Positions 5,604 to 42,025 of a stretch of 64,000 nucleotides of DNA are shown one piece after another. Source of the DNA: Filimonas sp. (GTDB lineage Bacteria; Bacteroidota; Bacteroidia; Chitinophagales; Chitinophagaceae); assembly GCA_017306865.1 (NCBI GenBank), contig JAFKHH010000022.1, forward strand, positions 1-64,000, in the 5' to 3' direction. The notes beneath the pieces were generated by a model, which did not search any database, had not been told where the DNA came from, and saw nothing but the letters and a program-made list of their open reading frames with translations. The translations under genes were made by a program, and so were the position numbers. Numbering within the stretch: the stretch's first letter is position 1; every line of letters starts with the position of its first letter.

Positions 5604-5675
5604 GGCTTCGTAGTTTAATGGATAGAACGAGAGATTCCGGTTCTCTAGGTTGGGGTTCGATTCCCTACGAGGCTA
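5604..5675 (+). tRNA. tRNA-Arg (anticodon CCG)
   Basis: A complete cloverleaf of 72 bases can be drawn. Acceptor arms are GGCTTCG and CGAGGCT with two G-T wobbles. The D arm is GTTT/GAAC, the anticodon arm AGAGA/TCTCT with loop TTCCGGT, the variable loop AGGT, and the T arm TGGGG/CCCTA with loop TTCGATT. The discriminator base is A and CCA is not encoded. Loop positions 34-36 read CCG, which decodes the arginine codon CGG. A strong terminator follows. Confidence 0.95.
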
Positions 5676-5680
5676 CTACT

Positions 5681-6924: not shown

Positions 6925-8295
6925 TTATATCGCTTTACTATAAACCGGTTTTTGTGATAAAGTTTCTTTATTGTGCAATAAGTGAAGGTCGAAGGCGCTA
7001 CAGATATTTCTGATGAAATTCTTTCCGATAGCTGTAATGCTTATCCCGTCTTCATTCCAGCGGATTAGATTATCTGATGCTAATGCTTCTAACGCTGGAA
7101 ATACATGCTTACGTAATATTGGAAGGTTCCTTTTCTCAAATATTGTTTGCCCATTACAGCTCAGATCGAGTATATATTTCCTGAAATCTCGGTCTTCCTC
7201 ACTCAAAAAATATCCCTTTTGTATTGAAAACTGCCCGTTATTAATAAAAGCATAGTAGTCTGAGAGCTTTTTTTCGTTCTGATAAAACGCAGAATTGACA
7301 TCCGAAATGCTTGAAACGCCTAATCCGATCATTAAGGACGCCCTTTCAGAACTGTATCCCATAAAACTTCTGAATAATTTTTTTTCTGTTGCGGCAATAA
7401 ACAGATCATCTGTAGGAAGAGAAAAATGGTCCATTCCTATATCATGGTATCCATTAGAAAGAAAAATGGCCTTACCCGTTTGGTATAATTGTAATTTTTC
7501 CTCTGCTGAAGGAAGATTCGTTTCGTCGAACAATCGTTGGCTTTTGCTTGTCCATGGTACATGTGCATAACTGTAAAAAGCAATCCTGTCAGGTTTAAGC
7601 GTCAAGCATTTAGCAACTGTCTCTGCAATGCTCTCTTGGGTTTGATAGGGAAGACCATAGATGAGATCGAAGTTTACGGATGTAAACCCTATTTTTCGTG
7701 CAGCTTCTGTTGCATGCTGCACATTTGCAAAGGGCTGAATGCGGTTGATCACTTCTTGTACATGGGCATCGTTGTCCTGTACGCCAAAACTGATCCTTTT
7801 AAAACCGCGGCTATGTAATACTTCCAAATGCTTTTCCGTTGTATTGTTGGGGTGCCCTTCAATGCTAAATGAGTGAGCGTGATGAATTGTAGATGTATTA
7901 ATAATATGGTCCAATAACATTGCAAGATGCTCCGGGCTAAAATAGGTAGGCGTACCTCCACCTAAATGCAATTCTTTAATAATAGGTTTTTCCGGTATTA
8001 GCTGTAAATACATATCCCACTCCTTCATCACAGCTTGTATATAAGGCAGCTCAATATCGTGATTAGATGATATTTTCTTCATACAACCGCAGTAAGTACA
8101 CAATGACTCGCAGAACGGAAGATGGATATAAATACTAATACCATCTGATGAATTGTACTTTTCAAAGGCTTGGATGAAATGTTGCTTCACTGTATCAACA
8201 TCTATACCCTCTTTCCAGAAAGGAACGGTGGGGTAGCTTGTATATCGGGGAACCGGAACATTATACTTGGATAACAAAGCATTATCAGGTTGCAT
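6925..8295 (-). CDS. hemN: oxygen-independent coproporphyrinogen III oxidase HemN
   Basis: This 456-residue radical-SAM enzyme decarboxylates coproporphyrinogen III to protoporphyrinogen IX when oxygen is low. The iron-sulfur and SAM motif is IHLPFCESLCTYCGC, with Cys62, Cys66, Cys69 and Cys71. HLGGGTPTYF and ISFGVQDND follow as in true HemN, and the C-terminal HemN domain is present at normal length. The HemN-type CxxxCxxCxC pattern argues against the HemW heme chaperone. It is divergent from an Fnr-type regulator and next to cbb3 oxidase genes, so it probably supplies heme for microaerobic respiration. A candidate Fnr site lies in its promoter. Confidence 0.95.
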   Translation of the reverse strand: MQPDNALLSKYNVPVPRYTSYPTVPFWKEGIDVDTVKQHFIQAFEKYNSSDGISIYIHLPFCESLCTYCGCMKKISSNHDIELPYIQAVMKEWDMYLQLIPEKPIIKELHLGGGTPTYFSPEHLAMLLDHIINTSTIHHAHSFSIEGHPNNTTEKHLEVLHSRGFKRISFGVQDNDAHVQEVINRIQPFANVQHATEAARKIGFTSVNFDLIYGLPYQTQESIAETVAKCLTLKPDRIAFYSYAHVPWTSKSQRLFDETNLPSAEEKLQLYQTGKAIFLSNGYHDIGMDHFSLPTDDLFIAATEKKLFRSFMGYSSERASLMIGLGVSSISDVNSAFYQNEKKLSDYYAFINNGQFSIQKGYFLSEEDRDFRKYILDLSCNGQTIFEKRNLPILRKHVFPALEALASDNLIRWNEDGISITAIGKNFIRNICSAFDLHLLHNKETLSQKPVYSKAI

Positions 8296-8309: not shown

Positions 8310-8317
8310 CAAAACTA
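8310..8317 (-). promoter_or_regulatory. -7 element of the hemN promoter
   Basis: The minus strand reads TAGTTTTG, matching TAnnTTTG, 15 bases before the hemN start codon. A TTG lies 17 bases further upstream, slightly short of the usual 19-21 spacing. Confidence 0.5.
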
Positions 8318-8339: not shown

Positions 8340-8353
8340 ATGACTTTCATCAT
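8340..8353. promoter_or_regulatory. candidate Crp/Fnr-family site ATGA-N6-TCAT
   Basis: ATGA and TCAT form a perfect dyad with 6-base spacing, containing the TGA-N6-TCA core used by Crp/Fnr proteins. It lies between hemN and the Fnr-type gene. Its centre is about 41 bp upstream of the start site predicted for hemN from the TAGTTTTG element, which is the class II activator position. Binding is inferred. Confidence 0.5.
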
Positions 8354-8429
8354 GCAAGTAAAAAGTACTGTCACAGTTGTGTAATAAATGCTTGTTTAGG
8401 CTATTTTCGGCTATCCGGGATAATTAAAG

Positions 8430-8437
8430 TATTTTTG
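8430..8437 (+). promoter_or_regulatory. -7 element of the Fnr-type regulator gene
   Basis: TATTTTTG matches TAnnTTTG and ends 21 bases before the ATG at 8459. No TTG is seen at the -33 position. This element would lie inside the gene if the upstream in-frame start at 8327 were used, so it also favours the 8459 start. Confidence 0.5.
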
Positions 8438-8458
8438 CGCAAAGCAAAGGACCCGTCT

Positions 8459-9169
8459 ATGAAGAATGTTTTTGAATTGACGCAATGCCAATCTTGTGAA
8501 CAACGCTTCACTTCAGTACTTTGTAAAGCCCGTGCTGAATACCTTACAGAGATAGACGATCACAAAATTCTCAATCAATACAAAAAAGGACAGGTGCTTT
8601 TCAATGAAGGTGCTTCTCCTTTTGGTGTTTACTGCATCAGTAGCGGTAAAGTAAAATTGTCTCATCTCGGAGATGATGGCAAGGAACAGATTGTGCGCTT
8701 GCTGCGTGATGGCGATTTGCTTGGGTATAGAGCATTGCTTAGTGGCGAGCGCTATACAGCATCTGCCGTGGCACTGGAGGATACTCATGTTTGCTTTATC
8801 CCTAAAGAATTATTTATCAGAGTCTTAAAAAGTGATGCCAATCTCTCTTTTGAGATGATGAAATTATTGAGCAACGACCTGCATAAGGCCGAATTAAAAA
8901 TAACACACCTTGCTCAAAAGCCTGTGCGCGAACGCCTGGCTGAAACTTTACTTTTTATAAAAGAAACATATGGCTATGAGGGTGACGGTATAACCCTGAA
9001 TGTACGCCTGTCCCGCGATGAAATAGCGAATCTTGTTGGTACTGCTACCGAGTCTATTATCCGCTTACTTTCTGAGTTTAAAAAAGATGGTATGTTAGAG
9101 CTGGATGGTAAAAAAATAAAAATTACCAATGCAAAAGATTTACTTCGGGCTGCTAACCTGCAAGACTAA
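8459..9169 (+). CDS. Crp/Fnr-family transcriptional regulator
   Basis: This 236-residue regulator has a cyclic-nucleotide-binding-type barrel at residues 30-140 (FNEGASPFGVYCISSGKVKL, later DGDLLGYRALLSGE). A Crp-type winged helix follows at about 160-225, with LSRDEIANLVGTATESIIR as recognition region. The N-terminus has three cysteines (CQSCEQRF then LCKA), so an Fnr-like oxygen-sensing cluster is possible but not proven. I chose the ATG at 8459. The reading frame is open from 8327, but that part looks non-coding and contains the promoter. It is divergent from hemN and directly before the cbb3 genes, so it is the likely regulator of both. Confidence 0.9.
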   Translation: MKNVFELTQCQSCEQRFTSVLCKARAEYLTEIDDHKILNQYKKGQVLFNEGASPFGVYCISSGKVKLSHLGDDGKEQIVRLLRDGDLLGYRALLSGERYTASAVALEDTHVCFIPKELFIRVLKSDANLSFEMMKLLSNDLHKAELKITHLAQKPVRERLAETLLFIKETYGYEGDGITLNVRLSRDEIANLVGTATESIIRLLSEFKKDGMLELDGKKIKITNAKDLLRAANLQD

Positions 9170-9173
9170 ATAC

Positions 9174-9207
9174 TGATAAAAGTCATATTCCCTGTTGAGA
9201 AAACTCA
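9174..9207. promoter_or_regulatory. two adjacent TGA-N6-TCA sites upstream of the hemerythrin-like gene
   Basis: TGA-TAAAAG-TCA lies at 9174-9185 and TGA-GAAAAC-TCA at 9196-9207, the second extending to TGAG-N4-CTCA. Centre-to-centre spacing is 22 bp, two helical turns. A weak -7-like TACCTTGC at 9231-9238 would place the second site near -41. Both match the Crp/Fnr core and are within 90 bases of the next start codon. Confidence 0.45.
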
Positions 9208-9257
9208 TGCGCAGTCTTTGACATGCAGATTACCTTGCAACTTAAAAATGGGGATAT

Positions 9258-9761
9258 ATGTTGCAACAGGGGCTGCATAATTCTGATCTACAAACGCTTT
9301 CAACAATAGAGTTGTGTGATTTCATTGAAAATGAATATCATAACAGGATAAAGCAGTATTGCTGCAATGTACAGGTATTCCTGGAGGCTAACCCTCACAT
9401 CCAGGATCTTCCTTTTTCTACTGCTGAACTTTTTCACCTGCTTACAGACAAACTCTGCGCGGAATTGAACTCTCTTTTACTTAAAGAATCAGGGATTGTA
9501 TTCCCATTTATCCGTCAGCAGGCAAAAACATTTCCGGCTCAGAATTGTATTGAAATAAAAGCCGCAGATACCATAAGGATAAAGCAGGATATTATTACCA
9601 TGTTGCTTCAGAAGATCAGGGCATTATTTAATAATTATACGAATCAACCAGCATGGACAAACCAACTGAAGATTTGTGTAGGGGAGTTATTTAATCTTGA
9701 GCAAACAGTACTTCAATGGATACATACGGAGCAATACCAGTTGTTTCCAAAATTCAAATAA
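9258..9761 (+). CDS. degenerate hemerythrin / RIC (ScdA/YtfE)-like protein
   Basis: This 167-residue helical protein is not a confident family match, but it resembles the hemerythrin domain of iron-sulfur repair proteins. IENEYHNRIKQ resembles the first ligand helix, LLLKESGIVFPFI the EE-vLFP region, and the C-terminal LEQTVLQWIHTEQYQLFPKF the final ligand helix. The His at LKES and the mid-protein His expected for a di-iron site are not present in those places, so the metal site looks incomplete. It sits between the Fnr-type gene and ccoI with 26 bases to the latter. A role in nitrosative stress or oxidase maturation is a guess from context. Confidence 0.5.
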   Translation: MLQQGLHNSDLQTLSTIELCDFIENEYHNRIKQYCCNVQVFLEANPHIQDLPFSTAELFHLLTDKLCAELNSLLLKESGIVFPFIRQQAKTFPAQNCIEIKAADTIRIKQDIITMLLQKIRALFNNYTNQPAWTNQLKICVGELFNLEQTVLQWIHTEQYQLFPKFK

Positions 9762-9787
9762 ATGACAAGCAGGCAAATTGAGCGCGT

Positions 9788-12196
9788 ATGGAACAGGTAG
9801 GAACACAAACTGAAACAAAATGTTATCACTGTGGCGAAGACTGCACTAGCGAAATAATTCATGCGTATGATAAAACATTTTGTTGCGCAGGCTGCAAAAT
9901 GGTATATGGCATACTTGCAGAAAGTAATCTGTGTGAATATTATGAAATAAACCAGGCGCCAGGTATTAATCAACGACAGGCAGTCAGGGAAAACAAGTTT
10001 TCATTTTTGGACGATATTTCCATCGCGCAAAAGCTCATTTCTTTCAAAGATGAGGAAAGAACGCATGTTACCTTTTATTTACCTCAGATACATTGCAGTA
10101 GCTGTTTGTGGCTACTGGAAAATTTACATAAACTGAATAATAATGTCATTTCCTCTACGGTAAACTTTGCGCGGAAAGAAGTGGAAGTGATTTTCCTGCA
10201 TGGAAAAGTATCCCTTAAGAAAGTAGCTGAATTATTAACTGCTGTTGGGTATGAACCATACATCAGTCTTCAAAATATAACAGCCTCCAAGCCTAAAGCC
10301 AATAGAGATAAACTATATAAACTTGGCGTAGCTGGTTTCTGTTTTGCTAACATTATGCTCCTTAGTTTTCCGGAATACCTGGGTGTAGATGCTAAAGAGC
10401 AAGGGCTTTTACATGTATTCAGATGGATAAATGTAATCCTAAGTCTGCCCGTATTTTTTTACAGTGCGACAGAATTTTATCAGAGCGCATGGAAGAGTTT
10501 GAAACATGGATTTTTAAATATAGATGCGCCCATTGTATTAGCTATTATAGTTACTTTTTGCCGAAGCATATATGAAGTACTTACCCAAACTGGTGGTGGC
10601 TATTTTGATTCTATGAGCGGCATTGTATTCTTTATGTTGGTTGGGAGGGTATTACAAAACAGAACATATGACCATTTGAATTTTGAGAGAGATTATACGG
10701 CCTATTTTCCTGTAGCAGTTACCTTAATAAAAGATAATAAAGAACAAGCCATTGCACTACCAGACATAAAGCTTAATGATACATTACTTATTCATAGCCA
10801 GGAGCTGATTCCGGCAGATGGTATTCTTACCCGTGGCAAAGCGTTGATCGACTATAGCTTTGTGACAGGCGAAAGCATGCCGGTAGAAAAAGAAATGGGA
10901 GAGATTGTTTATGCTGGTGGAAAACAACTGAGCGGTAACATAGAAATACTGGTAGTAAAAGAAGTGTCGCAAAGTTACTTGACAAGATTGTGGAATAGGG
11001 ATGAGCTTAAGCAAAAGAAAAATGACGAAACCAAATCCTTTGTTCATTTCTTAAGCAAATATTTTACCGTCATTGTTCTAACGATAGCATTCTCTGGTGC
11101 ATTATACTGGTTTTTCCGGGATAAGTCTGTGATGTGGAATGCTTTTACGGCCGTATTGATAGTGGCATGCCCGTGCGCGTTATTACTATGCAACACGTTT
11201 ACAAATGGCAATATCCTACGCATTCTTTCTAACAGGAAATTGTACTTGCGCAACGCACAGACGATAGAAGATATAGCAAATGTAGACTTGGTTGTTTTTG
11301 ATAAAACGGGAACATTAACCACCGGTTCTTTCTTTGATATACAATATGATGGAAGACCATTAACAGAAGAGATAAAACAAAAAATAGCATTACTAGCTTC
11401 TCAGTCAGTACACCCGATGAGTAAGTCTATAGCTGCATTATATCCGCGAAGAAATACCGGAGAGGTCGTCGCGTTTACTGAAGTAGCGGGAAAAGGAATA
11501 GAAGGTATTATACAAGGAGATCTTGTAACATTGGGTTCAAGGGAATATGTGACCGGAAGTACAGAAAAAGATTTTGATTCTGGCGTATATGTTGCGATAG
11601 AAGGCTCATTACTCGGAAAATTCAGTTTCAAAAATCATTATAGGGAAAATGTCGCTTCCCTTATTCAACGGCTGCAAAAGAGATACCCGATAGCCATTCT
11701 TAGCGGAGACAACGAAAGCGAAAAAAGATACCTGAAGTTATTGTTAGGAGAAAATGCGGACACATACTTTAACCAGAAACCGGAGGATAAACTAGCGTTT
11801 ATTAAAAAGAAACAGGCGGAGGGGCATAAAGTAATGATGATAGGTGATGGTCTGAACGATGCTGGCGCGCTAAAGCAGGCAGATGCAGGCATCTCTGTAA
11901 CAGAGGATAGCAACAATTTTACACCTGCCAGTGATGCCATCTTAGAAGCAAAAGAATTGAATAATTTACCCCGTTTTATTGCTTTTTGTAAAGCGAATGG
12001 TGTGATTATTATGATAGCCTTTATTATCTCTATCTTATATAATATTGCTGGTATTTACTTTGCGGTTACCGGGCGCTTGTCCCCAATGATTGCTGCAATA
12101 TTAATGCCCTCCAGTAGTATTAGCATCCTTCTTATAACTTTTGGCCTGAGTAACCTGTTGGCAAAAAAAGTATTTCGAAATTCTGGCGCTAACTAA
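9788..12196 (+). CDS. ccoI: copper-translocating P-type ATPase CcoI/FixI
   Basis: This 802-residue P1B ATPase delivers copper for assembly of cbb3 oxidase. The N-terminus has a cysteine cluster (C12, C15, C19, C32, C33, C36), then an HMA-like metal site H102-CSSC-L. Membrane helices follow, with the copper motif C461-P-C463 and the phosphorylation motif DKTGT at D505. TGES and GDGLNDAGAL motifs are present. The extra N-terminal cysteine domain is typical of CcoI rather than CopA. It precedes ccoS and the oxidase genes, though a strong terminator-like palindrome directly after the stop suggests separate transcription. Confidence 0.95.
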   Translation: MEQVGTQTETKCYHCGEDCTSEIIHAYDKTFCCAGCKMVYGILAESNLCEYYEINQAPGINQRQAVRENKFSFLDDISIAQKLISFKDEERTHVTFYLPQIHCSSCLWLLENLHKLNNNVISSTVNFARKEVEVIFLHGKVSLKKVAELLTAVGYEPYISLQNITASKPKANRDKLYKLGVAGFCFANIMLLSFPEYLGVDAKEQGLLHVFRWINVILSLPVFFYSATEFYQSAWKSLKHGFLNIDAPIVLAIIVTFCRSIYEVLTQTGGGYFDSMSGIVFFMLVGRVLQNRTYDHLNFERDYTAYFPVAVTLIKDNKEQAIALPDIKLNDTLLIHSQELIPADGILTRGKALIDYSFVTGESMPVEKEMGEIVYAGGKQLSGNIEILVVKEVSQSYLTRLWNRDELKQKKNDETKSFVHFLSKYFTVIVLTIAFSGALYWFFRDKSVMWNAFTAVLIVACPCALLLCNTFTNGNILRILSNRKLYLRNAQTIEDIANVDLVVFDKTGTLTTGSFFDIQYDGRPLTEEIKQKIALLASQSVHPMSKSIAALYPRRNTGEVVAFTEVAGKGIEGIIQGDLVTLGSREYVTGSTEKDFDSGVYVAIEGSLLGKFSFKNHYRENVASLIQRLQKRYPIAILSGDNESEKRYLKLLLGENADTYFNQKPEDKLAFIKKKQAEGHKVMMIGDGLNDAGALKQADAGISVTEDSNNFTPASDAILEAKELNNLPRFIAFCKANGVIIMIAFIISILYNIAGIYFAVTGRLSPMIAAILMPSSSISILLITFGLSNLLAKKVFRNSGAN

Positions 12197-12244
12197 TAAA
12201 CTGCCGGATGCATCTCTTTTAGAGATACATCCGGCAGTTTATTA
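12194..12244. terminator. 51-base palindromic terminator after ccoI
   Basis: The hairpin starts on the ccoI stop codon itself. TAATAAACTGCCGGATG pairs with CATCCGGCAGTTTATTA, with an inner ATCTCT/AGAGAT stem. It is long and nearly perfect, and the T-rich end suits an intrinsic terminator. From 12245 to 12461 only a candidate Fnr site and a weak -7 element are visible. Confidence 0.8.
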
Positions 12245-12379
12245 AAAACCATGCAAACAATTCCATATTCATACGCGTATATAACCTTGATTTACCGTAA
12301 GCGAGTGTATTTGTATCCCCTTCCCGCACATTCGTTTCGTTTTTCTTGTACTTCCCCTTACTCCGGCTACTGCCCGGCA

Positions 12380-12391
12380 TGACAAAAATCA
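12380..12391. promoter_or_regulatory. TGA-N6-TCA site upstream of the ccoS-ccoNO operon
   Basis: TGA-CAAAAA-TCA matches the Crp/Fnr core. A weak -7 element TAATTTCG at 12437-12444 would place its centre near -63. It lies 71 bases before ccoS in an otherwise featureless gap. Chance matches of this short core do occur; one lies at 41981-41992. Confidence 0.35.
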
Positions 12392-12461
12392 CCTTTTCAA
12401 GTGAGTAATATCATAGTCGTGCCCATAGAGCTAATTTAATTTCGCATTAACATTTTCAGAA

Positions 12462-12626
12462 ATGAGTGTCATTATCCTTTTACTCATCGCAAGCATAAGT
12501 GTAGCTGCATTATTCCTGTTCGCCTTTATATGGAATGTAAAAAGCGGACAGTATGATGATGATATCAGTCCACCTATGAGAATGCTGCTGGATGATAAGA
12601 AAAGCAAAGACGACGCTGAAGGTTAA
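12462..12626 (+). CDS. ccoS: cbb3 oxidase assembly protein CcoS
   Basis: This 54-residue protein starts MSVIILLLIASISVAALFLF and has one membrane helix, followed by FIWNVKSGQYDD and a charged tail. This is the standard CcoS pattern: short helix, then the W-x-V-x-S/N-GQ(Y/F)-D/E-D motif. CcoS is needed for cofactor insertion into cbb3 oxidase. It lies 43 bases upstream of ccoNO, and its end overlaps in another frame with the untranslated start of the ccoNO reading frame. Confidence 0.93.
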   Translation: MSVIILLLIASISVAALFLFAFIWNVKSGQYDDDISPPMRMLLDDKKSKDDAEG

Positions 12627-12669: not shown

Positions 12670-14856
12670 ATGCAGGTAGAGAAATTTTACTACGACAACA
12701 AGATTGTAAAAATGTTTGCCTACGCTACTATTTTGTGGGGAGTGGTTGGTATGCTTGCCGGTTTGCTGGCGGCAATACAGATATACCTACCCGGAGCAAA
12801 CTTTAATATGCCTGTCACAACCTTTGGTCGCGTAAGGCCCGTTCACACAAACGCTGTCATTTTTGCCTTTGTCGGAAATGGTATTTTCATGGGCGTTTAT
12901 TACTCTTTACAACGCTTGTGCAAAGCCAGGATGTATAGCGATATGCTAAGTAAAATACATTTCTGGGGCTGGCAGCTTATTATAGTAGCCGCAGCCATTA
13001 CTTTACTAGCCGGCTATACAACAGGTAAAGAATATGCAGAACTGGAATGGCCTATTGACATTGCCATCACACTCATTTGGGTAGTGTTTGGTATAAACAT
13101 GTTTGGCACCATTCTCAAAAGACGCGAACGTCACCTGTATGTAGCCATCTGGTTTTACATAGCCACATGGATCACTGTTGCCATGCTGCATATTGTAAAT
13201 TCTATTGAGCTACCATTTAGCTTTATGAAAAGCTATAGCTGGTATGCAGGTGTGCAAGATGCCTTAGTACAATGGTGGTACGGACATAATGCCGTTGCAT
13301 TCTTCCTTACAACTCCGTACCTCGGCCTCATGTATTACTTCCTGCCAAAGGCGGCCAACAGACCTATTTACAGCTATCGCTTATCCATCATACATTTTTG
13401 GGCATTGATTTTTATTTATATCTGGGCAGGGCCGCACCACCTGTTGTACACAGCATTGCCGGATTGGGCGCAAAGTTTGGGGGTTGTGTTCAGTGTAATG
13501 CTTATTGCACCTAGTTGGGGCGGCATGCTCAACGGTTTGTTTACGTTACGCGGCGCATGGGACAAAGTAAGGGAAGACCCGGTTCTGAAATTTATGGTTG
13601 TTGCTGTAACGTGCTATGGTATGGCAACATTCGAAGGGCCGTTGTTAAGTTTAAAAAGCGTAAACGCGATCTCACACTTTACCGACTGGACTATTGCGCA
13701 CGTACATATTGGTGCATTAGGCTGGAATGGGTTCCTTACATTCAGCGTATTGTATTGGCTTATACCAAAGATCTTCAAAACACAATTGTATTCTAAGAAA
13801 CTCGCAAATACGCATTTCTGGATCGGTACAATCGGTATAGTCGTGTATGCAATTCCTTTGTATTGGGCGGGCTTTGAGCAAAGCACTATGTGGAAAGCAT
13901 TCAACGAAGAAGGGGGATTGAAATTCTCTTTCATAGAAACTGTTACCAGCATTATACCAATGTATGTAGCTAGAAGCCTTGGTGGTCTCCTCTACCTGGT
14001 AGGCGTATTCGTGATGGTGTACAACATTGTAAAAACAGTTAAATCTGGTAAACTGGTAGCCAACGAAGAAGCAGAAGCAGCACCACTTTCCAAAGTTGTT
14101 GAAACACATGGTAAAGAACACTGGCACAGGTGGATAGAAAGAAAGCCGGTACAGATGCTCATTTTTAGTCTTATAGCTGTGGCTATAGGAGGCATACTCG
14201 AAATGGTGCCAACATTCTTGGTGAAGTCAAATATTCCAACCATTTCCTCCGTAAAACCATACACACCACTTGAGCTACAAGGTAGAGATATTTATGTGCG
14301 TGAAGGGTGTTATACCTGCCACTCACAAATGGTAAGGCCATTCCGCGATGAAGTAGCACGATATGGTGAATACAGCAAAGCAGGAGAGTTCGTATATGAT
14401 CATCCGTTCCAATGGGGTAGTAAAAGAACGGGGCCAGACCTGGCGAGAGAAGGAGGGAAAAACCCGGATAGCTGGCACTTCATGCACATGTGGGACCCGC
14501 GCAGAACATCAGACAAATCAATCATGCCGCAGTACACATGGTTGTTTAGAGACAATATAGATACAGCTATAACGCCGGCTAAGATTCGCGCTATGCAAAC
14601 ACTCGGCGTGCCGTATGAAAAAGGATATGACCAACTGGCAAATAGTGATCTGAAAGCACAGGCAAAGTCAATAGCTGACGGATTAAAACAAGATACACAG
14701 GTTAAGCAGTTGTCATCAACTGAAGATGGCATAGATCTGAAAAACCTGGAGCAGAAAGAGATCATAGCGCTGATCGCCTACCTGCAACGTATAGGTAAAG
14801 ACATAAAGGCTGAACCAAAGAAAGAAGCACCAATAGTAGAAGTAAGTAATAAATAA
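12670..14856 (+). CDS. ccoNO: cbb3-type cytochrome c oxidase, fused CcoN-CcoO subunits
   Basis: This 728-residue protein joins the heme-copper catalytic subunit CcoN (residues 1 to about 470, about 12 membrane helices) to the monoheme CcoO. The CcoN part shows RPVHTNAVIFAF, WWYGHNAVAFF and HFTDWTIAHVHIGALGWNG, with heme and CuB histidines. The CcoO part has one membrane helix, then the heme c motif C547-YTC-H551 and the axial-Met region SIMPQYTWL. N-O fusion is characteristic of Bacteroidota. I chose the ATG at 12670; the frame is open upstream from 12592 but that overlaps ccoS and has no conserved sequence. It reduces oxygen at the inner membrane with high affinity. Confidence 0.96.
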   Translation: MQVEKFYYDNKIVKMFAYATILWGVVGMLAGLLAAIQIYLPGANFNMPVTTFGRVRPVHTNAVIFAFVGNGIFMGVYYSLQRLCKARMYSDMLSKIHFWGWQLIIVAAAITLLAGYTTGKEYAELEWPIDIAITLIWVVFGINMFGTILKRRERHLYVAIWFYIATWITVAMLHIVNSIELPFSFMKSYSWYAGVQDALVQWWYGHNAVAFFLTTPYLGLMYYFLPKAANRPIYSYRLSIIHFWALIFIYIWAGPHHLLYTALPDWAQSLGVVFSVMLIAPSWGGMLNGLFTLRGAWDKVREDPVLKFMVVAVTCYGMATFEGPLLSLKSVNAISHFTDWTIAHVHIGALGWNGFLTFSVLYWLIPKIFKTQLYSKKLANTHFWIGTIGIVVYAIPLYWAGFEQSTMWKAFNEEGGLKFSFIETVTSIIPMYVARSLGGLLYLVGVFVMVYNIVKTVKSGKLVANEEAEAAPLSKVVETHGKEHWHRWIERKPVQMLIFSLIAVAIGGILEMVPTFLVKSNIPTISSVKPYTPLELQGRDIYVREGCYTCHSQMVRPFRDEVARYGEYSKAGEFVYDHPFQWGSKRTGPDLAREGGKNPDSWHFMHMWDPRRTSDKSIMPQYTWLFRDNIDTAITPAKIRAMQTLGVPYEKGYDQLANSDLKAQAKSIADGLKQDTQVKQLSSTEDGIDLKNLEQKEIIALIAYLQRIGKDIKAEPKKEAPIVEVSNK

Positions 14857-15036: not shown

Positions 15037-15069
15037 CCTGTGGATACTTTAATAAAAAAGCGACTGACG

Positions 15070-16266
15070 ATGAACCAAAATAAACATAAAAAATTACTCA
15101 GAGCAGGAATGCTGGTAGCAGGTATTTGCATAGCTAGCGGTGCTTTTGCTGATGGGCCTCCTAAACCAAGTGAGTTAAACAATGCACTGGCTATTACACT
15201 GGTTTGTGTAATAGCTGGGTTGGCACTAGCTATAGGCATACTGGCAAACGTGGTAATGAATGCCGCAGGCATCTATTTAAAAAAGTATAAAGAATCAAAA
15301 AAAGAAGCGGCAAACATAGCGAAGGTTGTTTCAGTTTTCTTGCTCTGCTTATTAAGCTCATCATTATTTGCAGAGGAGACTGCTACTGCTGCAACAAGTG
15401 TGGCAGCAACATTTGGCGGATTGTCTGCTGGCTCTTTCTACATGCTTATATCTGTAATAGGCCTTGAGATCATCATCATTCTTGCGTTGCTGTACAACCT
15501 CAAAGTGTTGTTGCGTATTGAGAAAAATCCTGTTGTTGCCACTGCTGAAGAAACGACTAGCGTGAAGAAAGATTCTGCATGGAAAAAAATATGGATTAAG
15601 CTGAACAACTTTAAATCTGAAAAAGAAGAAAAAGATTTGTTGCTTGATCATGACTACGACGGCATTAGAGAGCTGGATAACAAACTTCCTCCATGGTGGT
15701 TATATGGCTTCTACGTATGTATCATTTTTGCTGTGGTGTACTTATGGCGATATGAAGTTGCCCATAGTGCACCCTCAAGCCAGGAAGAATTTAAAATGGC
15801 AATGGAAGAGGCTGAGAAACAGAAAGAAGCATACCTGGCAAAAGCTGCAAATAATATAGATGAAAACTCCGTAAAGCAAATGACGGATACAGACGACCTG
15901 GAAGCAGGCAAGAAAGTTTTTACAACAACCTGTGCCGTATGTCACAAAGCTGATGGGGGAGGCATGGTAGGTCCTAATCTTACAGATGATTACTGGTTGC
16001 ATGGCGGGAGTATAAAAGATGTATTTAAGACCATTAAGTATGGTGTGCCAGACAAAGGGATGCAAAGCTGGAAAGATAATTTTTCTCCCAAACAAATAGC
16101 GCAGTTAGCCAGCTACGTAAAATCGTTACATGGCACGAACCCGCCGGGAGCAAAAGAGCCACAAGGTGAATTGTATAAAGATGCTGATGCAGGGGCTGGA
16201 GCAGCTACAACTACTGACAGTACTAAGGCTGCACCCGAAGGCACTACTGCACCAGATAAAAAGTAA
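15070..16266 (+). CDS. ccoP: cbb3 oxidase cytochrome c subunit CcoP (monoheme)
   Basis: This 398-residue protein has N-terminal hydrophobic segments, a further helix at WWLYGFYVCIIFAVVYLWRY, and a periplasmic cytochrome c domain with heme motif C288-AVC-H292. GGGMVGPNLTDDYWLHGG follows. Only one CxxCH is present, whereas proteobacterial CcoP has two. The C-terminus is a low-complexity Ala/Thr/Lys tail. I preferred the ATG at 15070; a GTG at 15040 in the same frame would add 10 residues. The longer N-terminal hydrophobic part is typical of Bacteroidota CcoP. Confidence 0.93.
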   Translation: MNQNKHKKLLRAGMLVAGICIASGAFADGPPKPSELNNALAITLVCVIAGLALAIGILANVVMNAAGIYLKKYKESKKEAANIAKVVSVFLLCLLSSSLFAEETATAATSVAATFGGLSAGSFYMLISVIGLEIIIILALLYNLKVLLRIEKNPVVATAEETTSVKKDSAWKKIWIKLNNFKSEKEEKDLLLDHDYDGIRELDNKLPPWWLYGFYVCIIFAVVYLWRYEVAHSAPSSQEEFKMAMEEAEKQKEAYLAKAANNIDENSVKQMTDTDDLEAGKKVFTTTCAVCHKADGGGMVGPNLTDDYWLHGGSIKDVFKTIKYGVPDKGMQSWKDNFSPKQIAQLASYVKSLHGTNPPGAKEPQGELYKDADAGAGAATTTDSTKAAPEGTTAPDKK

Positions 16267-16274
16267 TAAAAGAA

Positions 16275-17690
16275 ATGAGCAATAATCCAGATAATAGAGA
16301 CGCCGTTAAAGAGAGCTTTAGAGACAGGATAGCGACTGTAGATGAAAGTGGCAAACGCAACTGGATATACGCACAACAGCCGAAAGGAAAATTTTACAGA
16401 ATACGTACTTATTTAAGTATCCTTTATTTTTTGATATTCTTTGGTCTTCCGTTTATTTATGTAAACGGAAGGCCATTTCTCATGTTTAATATTCCCGAAA
16501 CAAAGTTCATCATCTTCGGGAAAGTCTTCTGGCCCCAGGACTTTTTCATTTTTGGCCTCGCCATGATCGCCTTTATTTTCTTTATCATTCTCTTTACAGC
16601 ATCATTCGGGCGCTTGTTTTGCGGATGGGCATGCCCGCAGACAAATTTTATGGAAATGATGTTCCGTAAAGTAGAATACCTGGTTCTTGGAAGTGCGAAC
16701 GAACAAAAAGCACTAAAAAAGGCACCGTGGACAAGTAGCAAAATAAGGAAAGTAGCATTGAAGCATATTCTCTTCTTCCTGCTGGCATTTATTATTGCTA
16801 ATTTTTTTCTTGCCTACATTATTAGTATAAAAGAATTGTGGAAGATCATAACGGAGCCCATAAGCGAGCATGTTGTAGGGTTTACCTCACTGCTGGCATT
16901 TAGTGGCGTGTTCTATGCAGTATATGCATTCTTCAGAGAGCAGGCGTGTACAGTCGTTTGTCCTTATGGCAGACTACAAGGCGTACTGTTGGATAAAAAC
17001 TCCATGGTAGTTGCGTACGATTATAAACGTGGTGAACCAAGGGGTAATATCAAAAAAAGCACAGCAGAAAATCCACTTGGCGACTGTATCGATTGTTTCC
17101 AATGTGTAAGAGTTTGCCCGACAGGTATAGACATTCGTAACGGTGTACAGATGGAATGTGTGGGCTGTACAGCTTGTATAGATGCCTGCGATAGTGTAAT
17201 GGATAAAATAGGCAAGCCAAGAGGCCTCGTCAGGTATGCATCTGAAAATTCTATTGCCAAAGGGGAAAAACTGCATTATACTGTAAGGATGAAGCTGTAC
17301 ACTGGGTTATGTGCCCTTGTGTTGGTACTGTTGAGCATTATATTAGTTACAAGAAAAGATGTTACTGCAATTGTAACCCGTGCATCAGGCCAGTTGTTCC
17401 AGGAGCGCGGAGATAGTATATCCAACCTGTACAACTTACGCGTAGTAAATAAAACACTCAACAAAATACCACTAACCGTAAAACTGGCATCGCAGGATGG
17501 TGCAGTAGAAGTGATTGGTGGCGCACATGTAGAAGTGGCGAAAGAGGGGCAGGGAAATGGCGTGTTCTTCGTAATAATACCCAGGAAAGCAATTCAAAAA
17601 ACGAAAACACCTATCATGTTAAACTTGTATGAAGGAAACAGGTTGATCGCCGAAGCTAAAACGATCTTCCTTGCACCTAAACAGGAATAA
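16275..17690 (+). CDS. ccoG: cytochrome c oxidase accessory protein CcoG (RdxA/FixG)
   Basis: This 471-residue membrane protein carries the NapH-like CGWACPQTNFMEMMFRKVE segment, CTVVCPYGRLQGVL, and two ferredoxin-type clusters: CIDCFQCVRVCPTGIDIRNG and CVGCTACIDACD. About five membrane helices and a C-terminal Ig-like domain complete the family pattern. CcoG is a cupric reductase needed for copper delivery to cbb3 oxidase. It starts 8 bases after ccoP. Confidence 0.96.
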   Translation: MSNNPDNRDAVKESFRDRIATVDESGKRNWIYAQQPKGKFYRIRTYLSILYFLIFFGLPFIYVNGRPFLMFNIPETKFIIFGKVFWPQDFFIFGLAMIAFIFFIILFTASFGRLFCGWACPQTNFMEMMFRKVEYLVLGSANEQKALKKAPWTSSKIRKVALKHILFFLLAFIIANFFLAYIISIKELWKIITEPISEHVVGFTSLLAFSGVFYAVYAFFREQACTVVCPYGRLQGVLLDKNSMVVAYDYKRGEPRGNIKKSTAENPLGDCIDCFQCVRVCPTGIDIRNGVQMECVGCTACIDACDSVMDKIGKPRGLVRYASENSIAKGEKLHYTVRMKLYTGLCALVLVLLSIILVTRKDVTAIVTRASGQLFQERGDSISNLYNLRVVNKTLNKIPLTVKLASQDGAVEVIGGAHVEVAKEGQGNGVFFVIIPRKAIQKTKTPIMLNLYEGNRLIAEAKTIFLAPKQE

Positions 17691-41970: not shown

Positions 41971-42025
41971 ATTTTACTGCTGACAATTTTCACCATTCAC
42001 GATTGCCGATTCACGTCTCACATAC

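Follow-up and report, generated by a model that had tools for sequence, protein, structure and literature searches.

The subject of this report is a set of TGA-N6-TCA sites lying between the genes of a hemN–fnr–cbb3 oxidase block in a 64,000-nucleotide stretch of Filimonas sp. DNA (hereafter the window; G000:C8:1-64000, from a host genome of 6.15 Mb). We put at roughly 0.85 the probability that these sites serve as operators for the Fnr-like product of 8459-9169, forming a low-oxygen regulon of the Fnr type with class II, double-dimer promoters. In all three gaps (ahead of hemN, the gene at 9258 and ccoS), the distance from the first base of a box to the T of a -7 box is exactly 35 nt, and in two of the three (9258 gene and ccoS) a second box stands exactly 22 bp further upstream. 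An earlier note on this DNA had proposed an Fnr-type regulon over hemN and the cbb3 oxidase; the conservation of cysteines, boxes and register among relatives supports it. It also seems more likely than not that Chitinophagaceae, and relatives in Bacteroidia, use the fixed double-dimer operator (-41.5/-63.5, 22 bp) as their standard low-oxygen switch, and that the operators stayed in place while their reader was swapped repeatedly between an Fnr-like sensor of the iron-sulfur (Fe-S) type and a receiver-CRP protein linked to FixL, in effect FixJ and FixK in one protein.

Proposed operators and promoter geometry

All four cores listed in the earlier note (8341-8352, 9174-9185, 9196-9207 and 12380-12391) are present, and a fifth, at 12402-12413 and exactly 22 bp from that at 12380, had been overlooked (Table 1). 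The hemN core reads ATGACTTTCATCAT in the window sequence and extends with its flanks over 8340-8353. Transcription starts are predicted at about 8305 (minus strand), 9243 and 12449 (both plus strand), 10-15 nt ahead of the start codons. In Flavobacterium psychrophilum the -7 box spans -12 to -5 (PMC9723704), so that the 35-nt register sets the box centre at -41.5 in each case and the second boxes at -63.5. The former is the position of a class II activator, and with respect to these predicted starts the boxes are placed as in class II promoters. Two boxes near -41 had been expected; the position holds, but there are three such promoters, since the 35-nt distance recurs in every gap, and the box at 12380 is instead the -63.5 partner.

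The -7 box of the 9258 gene, TACCTTGC, agrees with only four of the six fixed bases of TAnnTTTG, yet it matches TAnnTTGY, which is motif SM5 of F. psychrophilum (PMC9723704). The TAnnTTGC form at 9231-9238, in place of TAnnTTTG, is kept in relatives at the promoter of this 9258/ccoI unit and may point to a different sigma factor. A scan for promoters of the E. coli sigma-70 type gave no more matches than were found in shuffled sequence. A perfect -7 box, TATTTTTG, also occurs ahead of fnr at 8430-8437; no box lies at its -41.5 register, so fnr is apparently not autoregulated in the same way.

Conservation in relatives

Upstream regions from relatives were mostly fetched by homology of ccoNO or fnr and are to that extent not selected for the motif (L100-L107 were chosen for it). 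Upstream of ccoS or ccoI, 95 box pairs were found 12-80 bp apart, and 81 of them are spaced by exactly 22. An alignment of 79 ccoS promoters was anchored on the distal box, whose 100% conservation is thus by construction, while the proximal box and the -7 box were not anchored. Both cores are perfect in 54 of these promoters; in the others a degraded second core occupies its usual position. Nearly all have the two boxes in register with the -7 box. The -7 box at +57 shows T in 92%, A in 96% and TTT in 99-100%, and no -33 element is visible in the profile. Downstream of fnr, the tandem occurs in 69 of 110 loci, and 58 of the 69 have a -7 box at +57; across the 69 orthologous promoters TA and TT of this box reach 99-100% and GC about 60%. 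Among relatives, 10 of 26 hemN genes have a box 34-36 nt ahead of a -7-like box. In all, conservation of the boxes spans about 100 genera. Two sequences, L159 and L197, have no box upstream of ccoS; the second comes from G033, the only genome among those examined with ccoNO and without a match to the Fnr-like or the receiver-CRP protein.

In the aligned ccoS promoters the distal box is symmetric, TGAYAAAAATCA, whereas the proximal one is weaker and asymmetric (TTGAG-N5-TCAT). This difference suggests that a distal dimer would load first and help the proximal one.

Chance and the size of the proposed regulon

Motif statistics were obtained by pattern searches of genomes, with shuffles, patterns read backwards and altered spacings as controls. 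That the sites are chance palindromes in AT-rich intergenic DNA would agree with the behaviour of the single core, which shows no significant excess in the window (23 matches vs 17.4 ± 3.7 in shuffles). The extra match at 41981, given in the earlier note as a sign that the short core is unspecific, was found again, and such a lone box may well be due to chance. For the pairs, this reading is refuted by the enrichment of the tandem, its conservation and its constant distance from the -7 box, and as an account of the whole set it deserves next to no credence. The 22-bp tandem has exactly two matches in the host genome, both in the block, against none for the reversed control at the same spacing; a third tandem match has a spacing of 21 bp. 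When the -7 box is added and at most two mismatches are allowed, only the ccoS and 9258-gene promoters are recovered.

As a definition of the regulon in the host genome, one box plus TAnnTTTG was rejected: four matches were obtained vs five in the control, so this combination does not define a regulon by itself. With three mismatches, the tandem plus -7 box gave six further matches vs two forward and five reverse in the control; being at control level, they support no further member in the host genome, and only the block itself is claimed.

A search of 150 Chitinophagaceae genomes found 777 tandems, spread over 125 genomes, and 19 matches to the pattern read backwards. A more stringent control, with spacers lengthened by one or by two bases, gave 223 matches together, or about 112 for each spacing, which leaves a roughly sevenfold excess at 22 bp. 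A set of 148 genomes from across the phylum shows clear enrichment of the tandem in several families of this class, Bacteroidia, and a weak one elsewhere. In one genome (G118:C1) an identical box pair with an 11-bp spacer is present in eight copies and probably belongs to a repeated mobile element.

The Fnr-like regulator and its proposed action

The earlier note placed a Crp/Fnr-family gene inside the block, and the product of 8459-9169 (P0001) indeed has the CRP fold (PF00027, 5e-25) and the Crp helix-turn-helix (HTH) domain (PF13545, 9e-16); its structural matches are Crp/Fnr structures. By this protein, the nearest named relatives are Chitinophagaceae (Sediminibacterium, Hydrotalea and Chitinophaga), and a close ortholog (at least 45% identity) is found in 36 of the 150 genomes of the family. 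Four presumed cluster ligands (C10, C13, C22 and C112) and C59 are all cysteine in 100 of 113 orthologs. Cys59, the fifth cysteine, is itself kept in 110 of 113. In FNR-type regulators, Glu and Arg of the recognition helix contact DNA and read TGA; the corresponding E198 and R202 are found in 113 of 113 orthologs.

At low oxygen, a [4Fe-4S] dimer of this protein would bind TGA-N6-TCA centred at -41.5 and would activate RNA polymerase in class II fashion at hemN, at the RIC-like gene with ccoI, and at ccoS-ccoNO-P-G. At the latter two promoters a second dimer would sit exactly 22 bp upstream; as this is two helix turns and the same face of the DNA, the two dimers probably lie side by side, where they may cooperate.

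Several observations weigh against this explanation. The hemN promoter has one clear box only. Roughly one in ten of the orthologs sampled lacks Cys22, and the cysteine spacing of P0001, CX2CX8C, differs from the CX2CX5C of E. coli FNR. Scores stay under the curated Fnr models (PRK11161, 103 bits vs a cut-off of 228; FnrL, 85 vs 300), and for this reason the protein is called Fnr-like and not Fnr. Finally, a second Crp/Fnr paralog in the host genome, which has two matches, could bind the same core.

The boxes might also act in the opposite direction, adjacent dimers blocking the promoters at low oxygen or the upstream dimer excluding the alpha subunit of the polymerase. Repression from upstream FNR sites is known in E. 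coli, where it is strongest at -85 to -95 (PMC11264516, as it cites Barnard 2003). The boxes at -41.5 and -63.5 lie outside that zone, however, the former at the position of class II activation, and the missing -33 element is what is expected of an activated promoter. Moreover, oxygen limitation raises the expression of cbb3 and heme genes in F. psychrophilum (PMC9723704). On account of the box positions and of this flavobacterial induction, repression is considered quite unlikely, and activation by the Fnr-like protein is preferred.

Apparent exchange of the linked regulator

In other genomes ccoI adjoins a kinase (P0007) and a 352-amino-acid protein (P0006) with receiver, CRP and HTH domains (for example at L104:167-2785), the pair often being divergent from ccoI. 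For the PAS domain of the kinase, DosP and FixL rank first (E 8e-16 to 1e-13), which places it closest to heme-PAS oxygen sensors. It keeps the position of the heme His: its NHENY aligns with AHPEY of DosP, the His of which is the heme ligand. The kinase falls below the curated FixL model (NF041777, 99 bits vs 850). The receiver-CRP helix, TESLIR, is near-identical to TESIIR of P0001.

The receiver-CRP protein was found in 109 of the 150 family genomes. Genomes with both regulators have a mean of 7.5 tandems, those with receiver-CRP only 6.5, those with the Fnr-like protein only 2.1 and those with neither 0.75 (Mann-Whitney p = 5e-11 for receiver-CRP vs neither and p = 0.02 for Fnr-like only vs neither, values that are indicative only because the genomes are related). 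A tree built from 75 CcoI proteins requires at least seven switches of the linked regulator between the two types, and the well-supported branches force five changes for the receiver-CRP label alone. Both regulators occur together in 19 genomes, and linkage is not proof of which protein acts. It appears that the linked regulator has been exchanged several times while the double-box promoter was kept across the family.

These data bear on whether the sites of the window serve a Crp/Fnr-family protein other than that of the adjacent gene, the neighbourhood being merely historical. The same boxes stand beside the receiver-CRP fusion, with its TES-x-IR helix, in most relatives, so that a box does not identify one protein, and the second Crp/Fnr match in the host genome offers a candidate. 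Against this, the receiver-CRP protein is absent from the host genome, fnr orthologs keep the order fnr – RIC-like – ccoI – ccoS together with the paired boxes, and genomes with the Fnr-like protein only are richer in tandems than those with neither. A different reader is therefore thought improbable in the window, and the adjacent Fnr-like protein remains the favoured one.

In one genome (G036), 29 tandems were counted. Boxes precede ccoS-ccoNO, hemN, the FixL-like kinase, the receiver-CRP gene itself, a copper nitrite reductase, a full-length RIC and several universal stress proteins. HemN, CcoNO and receiver-CRP were named by homology and the others by eye from translations; as so annotated, the genes form a set typical of low oxygen and nitric oxide. 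On contigs C21, C53 and C68 of this genome (L355-L359), tandem boxes cluster ahead of genes resembling those of nirK, glucan phosphorylase and nitroreductase, and of genes for RIC and universal stress proteins, which seem to make up a large low-oxygen regulon.

Relation to known systems

Fnr, the class II position, FixL and the cbb3 and hemN targets are each already known. With the class II promoters of E. coli FNR, the present ones share a dimer box at -41.5, and the regulators share the CRP fold and four cysteines. The core here lacks strict TTGAT arms, unlike that of E. coli. Ser212 sits in the E. coli FNR helix, and the orthologs studied here have an invariant Ile at that position instead. 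Some E. coli promoters carry a further FNR site upstream, such as yfiD with its extra site at -93.5 (PMC11264516), and tandem-bound FNR was treated by Barnard et al. 2003, as cited in PMC11264516 and PMC3411108. In the family described here, in contrast, the second box is fixed at 22 bp (-63.5) and is the rule rather than the exception.

In the FixL-FixJ-FixK and hFixL-FxkR-FixK systems of rhizobia, fixNOQP (cbb3) is driven by a Crp/Fnr protein that is itself under the control of a FixL-type kinase (PMC7888657). Relatives of the host likewise have a FixL-like kinase beside a Crp/Fnr-type protein and cbb3 genes. Unlike rhizobia, they fuse the receiver and the Crp/Fnr-type protein beside the kinase, and the window has the Fnr-like protein instead.

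In Pseudomonas, Anr and Dnr control cco as well as hemN. For hemN this was reported by Rompf et al. 1998, a reference listed in PMC8510549. The kind of target, hemN and a high-affinity oxidase, is thus the same, whereas the TAnnTTTG promoter class, which belongs to the Bacteroidota sigma factor, and the fixed tandem set the present system apart. The study of F. psychrophilum reported TAnnTTTG and TAnnTTGY -7 boxes and a rise of cbb3 oxidase and heme biosynthesis genes on oxygen limitation (PMC9723704); it names no such regulator or operator, and the words Crp and TGA are absent from its text. In the literature searched, which included few subscription papers and gives no proof of novelty, no description was found of the tandem or the receiver-CRP protein in Bacteroidota, nor of a fixed 22-bp tandem as a rule together with the receiver-CRP swap.

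Little mapping of respiratory regulators has been done in Bacteroidota, where promoters differ from those of E. coli. An operator as precise as this one (paired boxes 22 bp apart and a 35-nt distance to the -7 box) allows low-oxygen regulons to be predicted in about 100 genera. It also offers a natural experiment, in which the neighbouring sensing mechanism (Fe-S cluster or heme kinase) varies while DNA sites and targets stay constant.

Genes of the block and neighbouring features

Table 1 Boxes, promoter elements and genes of the block (window coordinates)
Feature	Position	Strand	Remarks
hemN Crp/Fnr-type box	8341..8352	-	TGATGAAAGTCA on minus strand; centre -41.5 of predicted hemN start (~8305)
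hemN -7 box TAGTTTTG	8310..8317	-	perfect TAnnTTTG, 6/6 fixed bases
Distal box TGATAAAAGTCA	9174..9185	+	centre ~-63.5 of 9258 gene
Proximal box TGAGAAAACTCA	9196..9207	+	centre -41.5; 22 bp from distal box 9174-9185
-7 box TACCTTGC of 9258 gene	9231..9238	+	TAnnTTGY type
Distal box TGACAAAAATCA	12380..12391	+	centre ~-63.5 of ccoS
Proximal box TGAGTAATATCA	12402..12413	+	centre -41.5 of predicted ccoS start (~12449)
ccoS promoter -7 box TAATTTCG	12437..12444	+	5/6 fixed bases of TAnnTTTG
hemN, oxygen-independent coproporphyrinogen III oxidase	6925..8295	-	TIGR00538, 420 bits > cut-off 325
Fnr-like regulator (P0001), 236 amino acids	8459..9169	+	CX2CX8C + Cys112; recognition helix TESIIR
RIC/YtfE homolog, 167 amino acids	9258..9761	+	diverged, N-terminally truncated; first gene of ccoI transcript
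ccoI/fixI, cation P-type ATPase	9788..12196	+	
Inverted repeat, 24 nt, 3-nt loop	12194..12244		between ccoI and ccoS; missed by terminator scan
ccoS, cbb3 assembly protein	12462..12626	+	
ccoN-ccoO fusion, cbb3 oxidase subunits I/II	12670..14856	+	NF011053, 1293 bits, above cut-off
ccoP	15040..16266	+	FixP_N, cytochrome c
ccoG	16275..17690	+	Fer4_18, FixG_C

The product of 9258-9761 matches TIGR03652 over the C-terminal part only (model 59-216; E 1.8e-12; 47.6 bits, below the cut-off of 204.7). Most of the di-iron His positions of full-length RIC are lost, and the product is unlikely to work as a di-iron protein. About 65 relatives keep it, and in them Cys20, Glu69 and Pro83 are invariant. The hairpin at 12194-12244 is likely a terminator parting ccoI from ccoS, in line with ccoS having its own promoter. 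Elsewhere in the window, a tRNA-Arg (CCG) is found at 5604-5676.

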